Assembly: GCA_021793275.1 (NCBI GenBank)
Contig: JAJYTC010000019.1
Location: 1 to 40,627, forward strand
Length of the DNA stretch: 40,627 bases
Direction: 5' to 3'
Source of the DNA: Deltaproteobacteria bacterium
GTDB taxonomy: Bacteria > Desulfobacterota > Syntrophobacteria > Syntrophobacterales > Syntrophobacteraceae
Below, one piece after another: positions 11,053 through 15,092 of the stretch (its first letter is position 1; the number at the start of each line of letters is the position of its first letter). Under the pieces are notes generated by a model. That model did not search any database. It was not told where the DNA came from and saw only the letters and a program-made list of their open reading frames with translations. The translations under genes and the position numbers were made by a program.

Positions 11053-12192
11053 TCAATCCCGCTCCCACTTCCCCGTGCTGTAATTGTAGAACCACCGAGG
11101 ATTTGAGGACCCTTGCTCATAAAAAAGCCATGCTCCGTCAGAAGCTCGGTACATGTATGGATACACGGTCTGGCTGGTCCACCAGAATGCGTTCATTGTA
11201 TCGTCCCAAAACCAGATGCTGTCTTGAGTAGTTCCGTAAGCATAAAGCCAGCCGAGCGTCTGGTGGTAAATCCAGGGAGAATTGTCCGTGTTGAAGGTGC
11301 CAAACCATTGCAGCCATTTCCAGCCCTTTCCAAGGTCAACGGCGTTTTGCCATAGTGAAAGCGTAGGGGAAAGCGAAGCCGTAATGGTGACTGGCTTTGT
11401 CTCCGTCCCGACGTTGAAGTCGCCGTCAATATTTCCCTGCGAGGCTAAACTATTCGGGTCGAGGTTGTTGAACGACGTCATGACCCCCGGTTGGCTGCCC
11501 CGGCCTCCCGTGTTGGTGACGCCCGAAAAAGCCACCACGAGCTGGTAGGTGTCGCCCGCCACCAGGGTGAGTGTTGCCTGCTGAGACGAAGCCGCAAGGC
11601 TTGAGAGGCTGAATCTTTCTGAGTCTAACACCGTGGTGGTATCTTGGTGGGAATCGGTCTGGAAGATTTGTACCTCTCCGGTCAACTGCGGTTTTGGCGC
11701 CACGGCGGTCCCTGTCGTCGTGCCGCTCCAGTCCAGCGGCGCAACGGCCGAGGCGGAAAAAGCATAATTTCCGGTCGAGCTCACCGTGAAGAGCCTGCTA
11801 ATGAAAGAGCTGACCTTCTGACCGTTCTGGCAGACGCCCAGGGGGTCGTCCAGGGCGTAGCTGTTGTCCGCGTAGCCGTACACCGTTGCGCCCCCGGAGT
11901 CCTGCTCCAAATTCTGGAACGAATTGCCCCAGGCCCCTGAGGCCATGGTCAAACCCGCCTGCGATTCGGTCGCAGTTGCAACGGCCGAATTTTCCGAATC
12001 GCCGTTCGTATCGGATTTTTCGCTCGATACGACTAGAGAGACCGGAGGCCCTCCTCCATTATAATAAAATCCCCCCCGGTCAGTGGTATTGTAATCGAAA
12101 GAGTCGCTCAACCACGTGATGCTCGCCTCCGCCTTCGAGAAGACGAAAAATAAAAATCCAACGATCAGCAACAGGCAGGCTTTTGTCCTCAT
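11053..12192 (-). CDS. Exported protein of unknown function with C-terminal Trp-rich domain
   Basis: The 379-residue protein starts at the ATG at 12192 behind an AGGGGG ribosome-binding site. It has a signal peptide (MRTKACLLL, hydrophobic to about residue 19) with a likely cleavage after AEA (residue 23). Residues 24 to about 280 are rich in Ser, Thr, Gly and alternating hydrophobics and look like beta-sandwich; no family is recognised. Residues about 285-379 form a compact domain with 13 tryptophans (SPWIYHQTLGWLY, DSIWFWD, FWWTSQT, RWFYNYSTGKWERD). The same domain ends the S53 protease encoded next. It is probably periplasmic, outer-surface or secreted. No PEP-CTERM, LPXTG or autotransporter signal is seen. 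Function unknown. Confidence 0.75.
   Translation of the reverse strand: MRTKACLLLIVGFLFFVFSKAEASITWLSDSFDYNTTDRGGFYYNGGGPPVSLVVSSEKSDTNGDSENSAVATATESQAGLTMASGAWGNSFQNLEQDSGGATVYGYADNSYALDDPLGVCQNGQKVSSFISRLFTVSSTGNYAFSASAVAPLDWSGTTTGTAVAPKPQLTGEVQIFQTDSHQDTTTVLDSERFSLSSLAASSQQATLTLVAGDTYQLVVAFSGVTNTGGRGSQPGVMTSFNNLDPNSLASQGNIDGDFNVGTETKPVTITASLSPTLSLWQNAVDLGKGWKWLQWFGTFNTDNSPWIYHQTLGWLYAYGTTQDSIWFWDDTMNAFWWTSQTVYPYMYRASDGAWLFYEQGSSNPRWFYNYSTGKWERD
11202..11282. repeat. Near-identical DNA block, copy 1 (encodes part of the Trp-rich domain)
   Basis: An 81-base block that aligns without gaps to 13037-13117. It opens with 22 identical bases (11202-11223) and closes with 37 identical bases (11246-11282); the 22 bases between differ. 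Conservation at silent positions points to recent duplication or gene conversion between the two genes. Confidence 0.8.
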
Positions 12193-12890
12193 AGCTTTCC
12201 CCCTCTCGTTAATGAATAGATGGTTTGCTCGAACACGCGTAATGAAAGCCGCGGCAAAACAGGGCCAGGTCCCCTGATGGAGAAATGGCCCCGGGAACTG
12301 ATACGCAAAAGCGCAGGACGGCAAAATTTTTCTGCCGTCAGGGTGCTGTTTCTACAGACGGTATCGGCAAGCGTCGCTTGCCAAATCATTTGACTCCCCG
12401 GCCGCATAAATTGAGCGGACCAGGGAAGCCTGGATCTGAGGGTTTCCTGTGAAGCATGGCGCTTACATCGGATATTTCGTGAAGCTATTACAAGGCCCAA
12501 CCGCTTATGCTATAAAATCGGTTGGTGAGAGCGATAATAGATGAGATTCCAACACGAAGGTTATGCACCGTCGTGCGACTGCGTGAAATAATAAGTACGA
12601 CAAAATGGAAACGCATCATTTCCTATAATTTTTTTAGCAGAGCCGTAGGGTGGGTTAAGCGCAGCGCAACCCACCATCAACTCTTCGAAGCAGACAGGCC
12701 CCGAGACGGGTGAGCACCCCCCCCCGAAGCCGTTCTTATAGCTGGCGTCCTCTTCGCTCTTTTCCCGGGGCTTTCTTCCGACAAAGCGGGCCGGACCATC
12801 GCGAACACCTTTTCCGGCCGCCTCCCGATCTCTTTGAAAATGGAGACAGCCCCGCACACACTGACTTCGATGGCACTTCAGGCCATCTCC
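12193..12890. other. Intergenic region between the two Trp-rich-domain genes
   Basis: About 700 bases with no supported gene. Several short open frames exist on both strands, but none has a ribosome-binding site or recognisable product. It contains the REP-like hairpin at 12649-12675 and a run of nine C at 12717-12725. The promoter of the 12192 gene must lie here, but no good -35/-10 pair was seen. Confidence 0.55.
12649..12675. repeat. REP-like palindromic element
   Basis: GGTGGGTT (12649-12656) and AACCCACC (12668-12675) form a perfect 8-base stem around an 11-base GCGCAGCG-containing loop. The form GGTGGGTT-GCGCAGCG-AACCCACC is a well-known dispersed intergenic hairpin type in proteobacteria. 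Related hairpins sit at 27830-27857 and 28102-28129. Confidence 0.75.
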
Positions 12891-15092
12891 TTAATTGACC
12901 TCCCACTTCCTCGTCCTGAAATTGTAGAACAGGGGCGGGGAAGTCCATTCATCATAGTAGAGCCAAGTCCCGTCGCCGGCCCTGTAGATAAACGGAAACG
13001 TCGTCTGGCTCGTCCACCAGAATCCATTCATCGCCGCGTCCCAAAACCAGATGCTGTCCGGAGAAGTCCCGTAAGGATAGAGCCAGCCGAGCGTCTGGTG
13101 GTAAATCCAGGGAGAATCGCCCGTGTAGAAGAAGTAGAACCACTTCAGCCATTCCCAGCCGCCTCCAAGGTTTGTGGCGTTTTTCCAAAGGCCCCCCGCC
13201 TCCTGATACCCCAGGAGGAGGTTGGTTGCATCTATCGAACCCAGACCCGTGACCTGGTCATAGCCGGTCGTGCAGGAATATCCAGGGAGGTCCGCACCGT
13301 TACCGACAAAGCCGTTGGTGCCCGAAGTGATGTCGTTAAAAACAGCGGTTGCTCCGCTTGACCCATATTGCGCGCCGCCGAGTTCATAAAAAACGGTGTT
13401 TGCGCTACCCTGCCGCTCACCTCCCATGCTTTGTTCGATCAGCGCCATAATGCCTGCAAAAGAAGGCGATCCGCAGGAAGCCCCGCCGAAAGCATACAGC
13501 CCGTATGAATCGGACGCGCATGGGGAAGTGTCATCGTCGCAGGTGTAAACCAGATAACCGACGCTGTAAGGGTCGGCATTGAGAGAGACGTCCGGCACAT
13601 CACGCCGGCCGTCGCTTGGAACGCCCGGACAGACCTGCCAGGCAGGTTTACTATAAATGCCGGAGGCCCCTCCTCCCGAGGCCCACTCGTCCCACCCGCC
13701 CGACGAATCCCAGTCGTTCCAGGCCTCCTCCGACATGGTGGGCACGGAGCTCAAAGCCGAAACGCCCTCGACGCTGTTATTTGAGCTCCAGTACTCTGGT
13801 GAATCGCTCAACGATGTGCCGCCCACGGCGATATCGTAAGGCGTCGAGGCAAGACCGTTCACCGCCTTGCCCCCGCTCGGATCGCCGGAACTGTCCACGC
13901 AATCGTATGCGCCGGAGTCTCCCGAGACGACAAACACCGTTATTCCCTCCGCAGCCGCCTGCTCCCACAGTTCGGAATAAAATGCGTTCCCGGACGAGCC
14001 CAGGCCCTGCTCGCAAAGGTTGTAGCTGCAGCTCATTATGGGAGCGAGGTCGTTGTCGACGATGTATTCGGCAGACGTATCAATTCCGCCGTCATTTACC
14101 GATGAGGTGACGAAATCAATAGTGGCTCCCGGCGCAACCGCGCCTGCCCATTCGACGTCCAGATCGCTTTCTTCTACGTCGCCTTCCCCGTCATCGACCG
14201 CGGTACCGCCATTTGGTGGCACTATTACGTGAGGGGCGTTGAAAGGGACTCCAAAGCTCGTCCGGAACTCTGTCCACATGGTGGTGTCGGCGGGGGCTTG
14301 GCCCACGATGGCGATAGTTTCACCTTTGCCGTTATAACCCAGGCTATTATAGATTGTGTTGACATCGTATACGGCCGCGAAGTCGCCCGGCGAAAGATAA
14401 TAGCCCCGGGAAAGATAACCGGAGCCGCCGCTGCCTACAGTGTAGGCAGCCTGCGCCCCCCCGACCGGCGCCGGCAGGGCAGCGGTGTGCGCCGGCTTGA
14501 AGGGAAAACTGTTCAGCGAAACCGGCCCTGCTACCAGATCCGCCAGGGCGCCCGGGATGGAAGGATCGATCGAATTGGCGTGACGCAGACGACCGTTAAC
14601 CTCGTAATCGTGCATGTTCGCCTCGAAGGCGCGGTTAACATCGGCCGCCGTGCCCGAGAAGTTTATCATGGTCCGGCTATTGGAAACGGAATCGATGGTA
14701 AACCCCTCGGAGACTAGCCAGTTCTTTACTGTGGCTATCTCTTCGCGACTTTGTCCAAACCTCCGGCCAAATTGCTCGGGAGTCAGCCATCTGTGATAGT
14801 GCGAAGAAGAAGGCTCCTGCTGTTCGGCAACCAGCCGGTCGAGTTGCGCCTGTTTATGAGGGTCGATCTTTAAAAGAAGGATCATTCCGTTCATCGGCAG
14901 CGAAGAGTCGGCCGGCCCCTGGTCGAACTCTGGTTTTGCCCCGGGATTTACGTCTCCATGAAGAATCACCCTGCCGTTTTTATTGGTAGCGGTACTACCG
15001 GCGGCAAAGGAAGACCTGAGCCCGATAGATGAGCAAGCCGCCAATGCAACTGCAAAGACAACGGCAGTGATGATCGATCTTCTTAACATCAT
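12891..15092 (-). CDS. S53 (sedolisin/kumamolisin-type) serine-carboxyl protease with C-terminal Trp-rich domain
   Basis: The 733-residue preproprotein has a signal sequence with a possible lipobox LAAC at residues 17-20, so it may be a lipoprotein. Residues about 45-200 match the pro-kumamolisin activation domain (SSSHYHRWLTPEQFGRRFG, FEANMHDY). The catalytic domain covers about 230-630. The expected Ser-Glu-Asp triad is visible as E308 and D312 (ESDLD) and S539 in GGASCGSP, where Ala replaces the usual Thr of GTS. The oxyanion Asp is D392 in VVSGDSG. A calcium site is suggested by FNDITSG (D587) and GYDQVTGLGS. The last 95 residues are the Trp-rich domain shared with the 11053-12192 gene. 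S53 enzymes are exported endopeptidases active at acid pH. The ATG at 15092 follows GGAG. Confidence 0.9.
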   Translation of the reverse strand: MMLRRSIITAVVFAVALAACSSIGLRSSFAAGSTATNKNGRVILHGDVNPGAKPEFDQGPADSSLPMNGMILLLKIDPHKQAQLDRLVAEQQEPSSSHYHRWLTPEQFGRRFGQSREEIATVKNWLVSEGFTIDSVSNSRTMINFSGTAADVNRAFEANMHDYEVNGRLRHANSIDPSIPGALADLVAGPVSLNSFPFKPAHTAALPAPVGGAQAAYTVGSGGSGYLSRGYYLSPGDFAAVYDVNTIYNSLGYNGKGETIAIVGQAPADTTMWTEFRTSFGVPFNAPHVIVPPNGGTAVDDGEGDVEESDLDVEWAGAVAPGATIDFVTSSVNDGGIDTSAEYIVDNDLAPIMSCSYNLCEQGLGSSGNAFYSELWEQAAAEGITVFVVSGDSGAYDCVDSSGDPSGGKAVNGLASTPYDIAVGGTSLSDSPEYWSSNNSVEGVSALSSVPTMSEEAWNDWDSSGGWDEWASGGGASGIYSKPAWQVCPGVPSDGRRDVPDVSLNADPYSVGYLVYTCDDDTSPCASDSYGLYAFGGASCGSPSFAGIMALIEQSMGGERQGSANTVFYELGGAQYGSSGATAVFNDITSGTNGFVGNGADLPGYSCTTGYDQVTGLGSIDATNLLLGYQEAGGLWKNATNLGGGWEWLKWFYFFYTGDSPWIYHQTLGWLYPYGTSPDSIWFWDAAMNGFWWTSQTTFPFIYRAGDGTWLYYDEWTSPPLFYNFRTRKWEVN
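13037..13117. repeat. Near-identical DNA block, copy 2 (encodes part of the protease Trp-rich domain)
   Basis: Partner of 11202-11282, same length and orientation. Identical runs are 13037-13058 (22 bases) and 13081-13117 (37 bases). Confidence 0.8.

Follow-up and report, generated by a model that had tools for sequence, protein, structure and literature searches.

Introduction

Choline-binding, GW and similar wall-binding repeats of Gram-positive bacteria are short Trp/Tyr/Gly-rich β-hairpins, which are located terminally and retain proteins non-covalently. Another system is formed by the PEP-CTERM/VPLPA-CTERM signals and exosortase (TIGR02595, TIGR03370, PF09721; PMC1569441), and PEP-CTERM proteins have been linked to exopolysaccharide (PMC1569441). 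In the GlyGly-CTERM/rhombosortase system, S8/S53 proteases occur with or without the sorting tail, and there are families with swapped tails (PMC3237569). Here, we analyze a Trp-rich tail of about 95 residues that ends the products of two neighbouring genes, P0001 and P0002, present on a stretch of 40,627 nt from a Deltaproteobacteria bacterium (GCA_021793275.1, contig JAJYTC010000019.1). This whole stretch is referred to as the window, and both genes are located on its (−) strand. The tail is a real module that is undescribed in domain libraries and widespread. We give a probability of about 0.55 to the reading that it is an interchangeable module for non-covalent surface retention, putatively binding the cell's own polysaccharide.

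The tail was found in Opitutia (Verrucomicrobiota) and in Syntrophobacteraceae-type metagenome-assembled genomes (MAGs), hereafter the genus, of which 11 genomes were sampled, including that of the window (G000). Like PEP-CTERM, it is C-terminal, present in many copies per genome and carried by diverse signal-peptide proteins. Moreover, its hosts have exosortase, and the P0001 body of genome G006 bears a similar end where the Trp tail otherwise sits. However, PEP-CTERM signals comprise about 25 residues with a transmembrane (TM) helix and a basic end, whereas the Trp tail is a predicted soluble β module without either, and it may be N-terminal in Opitutia. GlyGly-CTERM follows the same swap logic as the Trp tail on S53 bodies, but it is a short signal of the TM type on which a rhomboid protease acts, whereas the Trp tail lacks a TM segment and no enzyme is known to process it. 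The analogy with choline-binding and GW repeats lies in the predicted hairpins, the aromatic residues, the terminal place and the putative retention; unlike these repeats, the tail is a single, non-repeated domain of Gram-negative hosts and has no Pfam match (E up to 10). The C-terminal domain of Type IX secretion system (T9SS) cargo is likewise a β domain of about 80–100 residues that ends many exported proteins, but the Trp tail has no NCBIfam match (E up to 10) and is not strictly C-terminal in Opitutia. As to the "choice-of-anchor" families (TIGR03803 GloVer, TIGR05002), in the genus the Trp tail terminates four GloVer proteins and one NxxGxxAF protein; it is absent from the anchor types recorded by NCBIfam. 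The tail belongs to none of the known anchor families tested.

Results

Two unrelated proteins of the window share a Trp-rich tail

The features of the two genes are the following:

11053..12192, (−) strand: gene P0001, the exported neighbour, 379 aa from ATG 12192
12124..12192, (−) strand: signal peptide of P0001, MRTKACLLLIVGFLFFVFSKAEA, called from the sequence with a home-made hydrophobicity rule
11356..12123, (−) strand: body of P0001, with a β-rich low-confidence model
11056..11355, (−) strand: Trp-rich tail 1 (P0001), 100 residues, 13 Trp
12891..15092, (−) strand: gene P0002, S53 (kumamolisin-type) serine-carboxyl protease, 733 aa, with prodomain and Trp-rich tail
14526..14921, (−) strand: pro-kumamolisin activation domain of P0002, residues 58-189 (PF09286, 6.4e-29)
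13215..14393, (−) strand: S53 catalytic domain of P0002, residues 234-626
12894..13190, (−) strand: Trp-rich tail 2 (P0002), 99 residues, 13 Trp
11202..11282, (−) strand: near-identical block in tail 1, partner of 13037-13117 (75/81; runs of 22 and 37)
13037..13117, (−) strand: near-identical block in tail 2, partner of 11202-11282 (75/81)

BLASTP comparison of P0001 with P0002 gave an alignment that is confined to the last 98 residues, 64 of which are identical (E 4e-43), with only chance matches elsewhere. Both tails contain 13 Trp and the same order of motifs, including DSIWFWD, FWWTSQT and, near the end, KWE. An earlier note on this DNA had described such a tail on two otherwise unrelated proteins, one of them an S53 protease, and both statements hold. 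Sequence comparison confirmed that the body of P0002 is a member of the S53 sedolisin/kumamolisin family: phmmer matched it to kumamolisin across residues 41-626 (1.3e-25), the Ser of GASCGSP and the Glu/Asp/Asp positions of the S53 signature are kept, and the prodomain (Pro-kuma_activ) is present.

The body of P0001 had no match in Pfam or NCBIfam, and its model is β-rich with a mean pLDDT of 61. A lectin-like or carbohydrate-binding module (CBM)-like fold was considered for it and not used, as the Foldseek matches were weak (none with E < 0.001). Translation of P0001 probably starts at ATG 12192 rather than at TTG 12324, and the listed open reading frame (ORF) is probably too long, because this ATG is preceded by the Shine-Dalgarno-like sequence GAGAGGGGGA (GAGAGGGGGAAAGCT-ATG) and followed by a signal peptide, and because the orthologues have the same N-terminus, with an MRTK-type signal peptide.

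The tail is a predicted all-β module without a match in domain libraries

In Pfam and NCBIfam (E up to 10) and in PHROGs (E up to 1), neither tail had a match, which rules out a known named domain for these libraries. A search of the PDB sequences with a tail profile yielded nothing credible (best E 0.72), and literature searches, including on "choice-of-anchor", found no paper on the tail domain. When proteins carrying the tail were scanned (42 of the genus and 40 of Opitutia), any one family was present in at most 8/42 and 3/40 of them, respectively. No family is common to the carriers, as would be expected if these libraries had contained a model of the tail.

The tails contain a mean of 11.7 Trp and 27.5% aromatic residues, and the W, G, H, P and F columns of their alignment are near-invariant. 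No PEP or PxPx motif, TM helix or basic cluster was found in the tail, and internal repeats with a periodicity of about 10, 20 or 40 residues were not significant (P 0.12). Structure prediction gave an all-β arrangement of hairpins, the best of five models having a mean pLDDT of 85.8, and VIA-align with the tail model revealed no convincing relative (best Z 5.3, to a designed β barrel). The tail is thus predicted to be a self-contained, Trp-rich all-β module consisting of a run of β-hairpins.

The tail is abundant in one Opitutia order and islanded in one genus

A profile search of genomes showed that the tail extends beyond the two genes, with seven copies in the genome of the window and more elsewhere. 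It is present in 6/11 genomes of the genus, in 3–16 copies each, and was not found in 29 sampled relatives outside the genus (genus level upward) or in 344 other genomes sampled from the same phylum. Screening of GTDB contigs resulted in 22 tail loci in Deltaproteobacteria/Syntrophobacteraceae MAGs and three in Opitutia (matching contig coordinates connect these MAGs with genomes of the genus; for example, G009 is JAJYDE01 and G007 is JARLHO01). The earlier note had mentioned similar tails in secreted proteins of the Verrucomicrobia type, and they were indeed found in Opitutia. Three Opitutia genomes contain about 20 copies each, and in one order 32 of the 103 sampled genomes carry the tail, with up to 58 copies, this maximum being reached in a single-contig genome of 5.8 Mb. 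In a sample across Verrucomicrobiota, 6/338 genomes matched, four of which had already been counted in the order.

The tail is therefore abundant in one Opitutia order and islanded in one Syntrophobacteraceae-type genus, and it probably moved between the two; judged from the distribution and not from a rooted tree, transfer from Opitutia is the simplest reading. Contamination of the MAG is unlikely because six genomes of the genus carry the tail and the window contains ordinary bacterial genes, including glyS, miaB and a 2-oxoglutarate dehydrogenase operon. A phage or plasmid origin was rejected, with no tail match in phages, plasmids or viral contigs.

Diverse exported proteins carry the tail, and its position is free in Opitutia

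We examined 103 ORFs with a tail, 43 of the genus and 60 from three Opitutia genomes. Each has a single tail and the partners are unrelated, so that the portable terminal module on exported proteins proposed in the earlier note now has more than 100 instances on very diverse partners. According to a simple home-made rule, ORFs with a complete N-terminus have a signal-peptide-like start in 34 of 38 cases for the genus and in 48 of 55 for the three Opitutia genomes. The tail lies within nine residues of the C-terminus in all 43 genus ORFs. Of the 60 Opitutia tails, 45 sit at the C-terminus and 6 are followed by 51 to >100 residues. The other 9 come immediately after the signal peptide, which shows that the position of the tail is free in Opitutia.

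The tail might be an export or sorting signal, i.e., a folded element that is recognised by a secretion or processing machinery of its own and required for passage through the outer membrane, as in T9SS cargo. Its place at the extreme C-terminus in the genus, the single copy per protein combined with many copies per genome, and an exosortase gene directly before the tail gene in two Opitutia genomes are in line with this explanation. However, the 9 Opitutia tails behind a signal peptide and the 6 with further residues after them speak against it, as do the lack of a match to T9SS, PEP-CTERM or other NCBIfam sorting models and the presence of exosortase in 10/11 genus genomes irrespective of the tail. 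Taken together, the freedom of position in Opitutia and the signal peptides kept by near-orthologous tail-less bodies (see below) therefore disfavour an obligatory export signal, and we consider this explanation unlikely. Of the roles offered in the earlier note, anchoring or polymer binding fits best, and a role in strictly C-terminal sorting is weakened.

The partners in the genus are repeat proteins (SBBP and NHL propellers, GloVer, HAF, NxxGxxAF, FG-GAP, fibronectin and immunoglobulin (Ig) domains) and enzymes (S53 and papain-type proteases, AcpA/phospholipase C-type phosphoesterase and choloylglycine hydrolase). Chondroitinase B and subtilase are also among the enzyme partners, and a PMT_2/GT39-like membrane transferase (L110) carries the tail. 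Proteases, phosphoesterase, chondroitinase B and subtilase, and also the aromatic-rich character of the tail, would suit a function like that of the CBM in secreted hydrolases: by binding to a polymer outside the cell (plant, algal or microbial polysaccharide, or protein aggregates), the tail would direct the enzyme to its food. In the genus, however, propeller or repeat proteins that are not enzymes (SBBP, NHL, GloVer, HAF) make up most of the partners, and a membrane glycosyltransferase with a tail does not fit an external substrate. Such substrate targeting is distinctly unlikely.

Two related proteins, encoded at L014 9569-10897 (genome of the window, contig C225) and L120 886-2247, lack a signal peptide, contain a KTGTTTLQ P-loop and end in the Trp tail, which is odd for a module otherwise present on exported proteins. 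They are sulfotransferase-like by motif alone, and a Pfam scan gave no match. The L014 tail gene is located between a GT2 (GT2-HAD) glycosyltransferase gene and an MsbA-type ABC transporter gene.

The same bodies carry alternative termini

The S53 body is present in seven genomes of the genus; the homologues are 54–74% identical and their termini differ. A Trp tail is present in G000, G004-C176, G007 and G010, GxCGSSNG Cys-repeats in two bodies of G009, Ig-like and FxIDNGA repeats in four of G002, and a short Ser-rich end in G004-C275. G002 has no Trp tail anywhere in its genome. The S53 near-orthologues without the tail retain their signal peptide.

The P0001 body ends in the Trp tail in five genus genomes, and in L016 and L130 NHL and Cys repeats precede this tail. 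One member, in G006, ends in PIPG-TM-KRKR (APIPGSVLLLLSGLGSMVILKRKRA / SLSPAPIPGSVLLLLSGLGSMVILKRKRA). The sole NCBIfam match of this end is to VPLPA-CTERM (E 0.006; 16.6 bits, cut-off 25.35), and exosortase is present in G006; the end is probably a PEP-CTERM-type sorting signal. With its different termini in different genomes, the P0001 body agrees with a "choice-of-anchor" body. Similarly, GloVer proteins have a Trp tail in G000, G006, G009 and G010, Cys-repeat or fn3-like ends in G002, and GWTP...LLWAGTGGYAALW repeat ends in G003 and G008. These comparisons show that the tail is a portable, interchangeable terminal module.

The GloVer ends at L219, L221 and L227 (the tail-less G003 and G008) consist of the aromatic-rich repeat GWTPxSYxxNPDGTRTLLWAGTGGYAALWTLDSSNT, and the GWTP-type repeat is possibly an alternative surface module. 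Long arrays of a Cys/Trp repeat of about 48 residues (NGACGSSNGGxFTSAPTSNLCSSGTASxVSGTGPWSWTCAGxNGGT) were observed at L016, L101, L104, L106, L130, L197 and L202, either before the Trp tail or replacing it on S53.

Of the 11 genomes in the genus, the six with a tail, and no others, contain the P0001 body, a coincidence of patterns expected in 1 of 462 cases if the two were independent, and the S53 and P0001 genes adjoin in the genome of the window and in G010. Both observations could be explained if the tail docked, dockerin-like, onto a surface scaffold protein of which the P0001 body might be a part. Yet the matching pattern may reflect shared descent alone, it covers genus genomes only, and the P0001 body carries the tail itself. 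We regard docking as highly unlikely.

Exosortase and glycan context

Exosortase (PF09721) is present in 10/11 genomes of the genus, with or without the tail, among them G000 and every other tail-bearing one; it was not found in the small Opitutia assembly G042. The earlier note had suggested looking for a co-occurring export or processing gene. Within the genus, the presence of exosortase is independent of the tail, and it was rejected as the tail's matching partner. In Opitutia G040 (L246 4776-7298) and G041 (L247 4838-7262), genes for a polyprenyl synthase, an exosortase (long form) and a tail protein lie in a row, the latter of about 267 aa with a signal peptide and a Trp tail at its end. 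Glycan enzymes among the partners and exosortase genes next to tail genes, taken as context only, point to a surface polysaccharide as the ligand of the tail.

A short block of the two tails has probably undergone gene conversion

The earlier note had reported a gap-free alignment of 81 bases that includes runs of 22 and 37 identical bases. This is correct for 11202-11282 versus 13037-13117 (75/81), with an additional run of 7, and the DNA similarity around the blocks extends over 251 bases (77%). The 37-base run is the longest identical run in 861 pairs of genus tails. Synonymous codons are identical at 17/19 positions inside the block and at 20/32 outside it (Fisher P 0.035), with an all-pairs background of 0.48. 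The block is likely the result of a short gene conversion between neighbours, for which the statistics are modest.

The proposal of the earlier note that the domain was recently duplicated or homogenised holds for this tract of about 81 bases, but not for whole tails. Wholesale homogenisation was rejected because the identity of the tails at four-fold sites is alike within (0.40) and between (0.38) genomes; moreover, the S53 tail of the window groups with the S53 tail of G004, another species (support 95/87).

Discussion

The reading that we favour, surface retention, would involve the following steps. An ordinary N-terminal signal peptide, as predicted from the protein sequences, would export the partner. 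The comparison of genomes shows that different modules, among them the tail, can fill the terminal slot of the same body, and in one case this slot seems to be taken by a PEP-CTERM-like sorting signal instead. Outside the inner membrane, the aromatic-rich tail would bind an envelope or capsule polymer of the cell itself non-covalently, a polysaccharide being the most likely ligand. In this way, proteases, propeller proteins and phosphoesterases would be kept at the surface and not be lost to the medium. The domain would have passed between Opitutia and one genus, and then onto 3–16 proteins per genome.

Several observations weigh against surface retention. Only one of the five tail models is confident, the pLDDT of the other four being 57–68, and Foldseek with the tail model found no significant fold relative. 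Three tail proteins of the genus have no obvious signal peptide, two of which are cytoplasmic-looking P-loop proteins and the third has an uncertain annotated start. Furthermore, the PEP-CTERM-like match in G006 is a single case below the curated cut-off, and exosortase is also present in tail-less genomes.

A broader proposal, to which we give somewhat less than even odds, is that the tail represents a new family of surface-retention domains of Opitutia and one Syntrophobacteraceae-type genus. Such domains would retain proteins non-covalently and irrespective of their position in the protein, as an alternative to sortase-type anchoring, and would have a polysaccharide ligand of their own. They would have been passed between the two phyla and could take the place of PEP-CTERM-type signals on the same bodies.

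In one order of Opitutia, this one unnamed domain is present on as many as 58 proteins of a genome. If surface retention is true, hundreds of proteins that lack annotation can be assigned a predicted location, the NCBI choice-of-anchor families gain a new "anchor", and surface display in Gram-negative bacteria gains a natural tag. Since near-orthologous bodies occur in nature with swapped termini, the function of the tail can be tested directly.

Other features of the window

RNA families were not detected within the window. From a by-eye reading of the translation, positions 834-2012 on the (+) strand encode a protein in which a HigA-type antitoxin is joined to a metallopeptidase domain resembling ImmA/IrrE (HExxH), as is typical of a toxin-antitoxin-like regulator.

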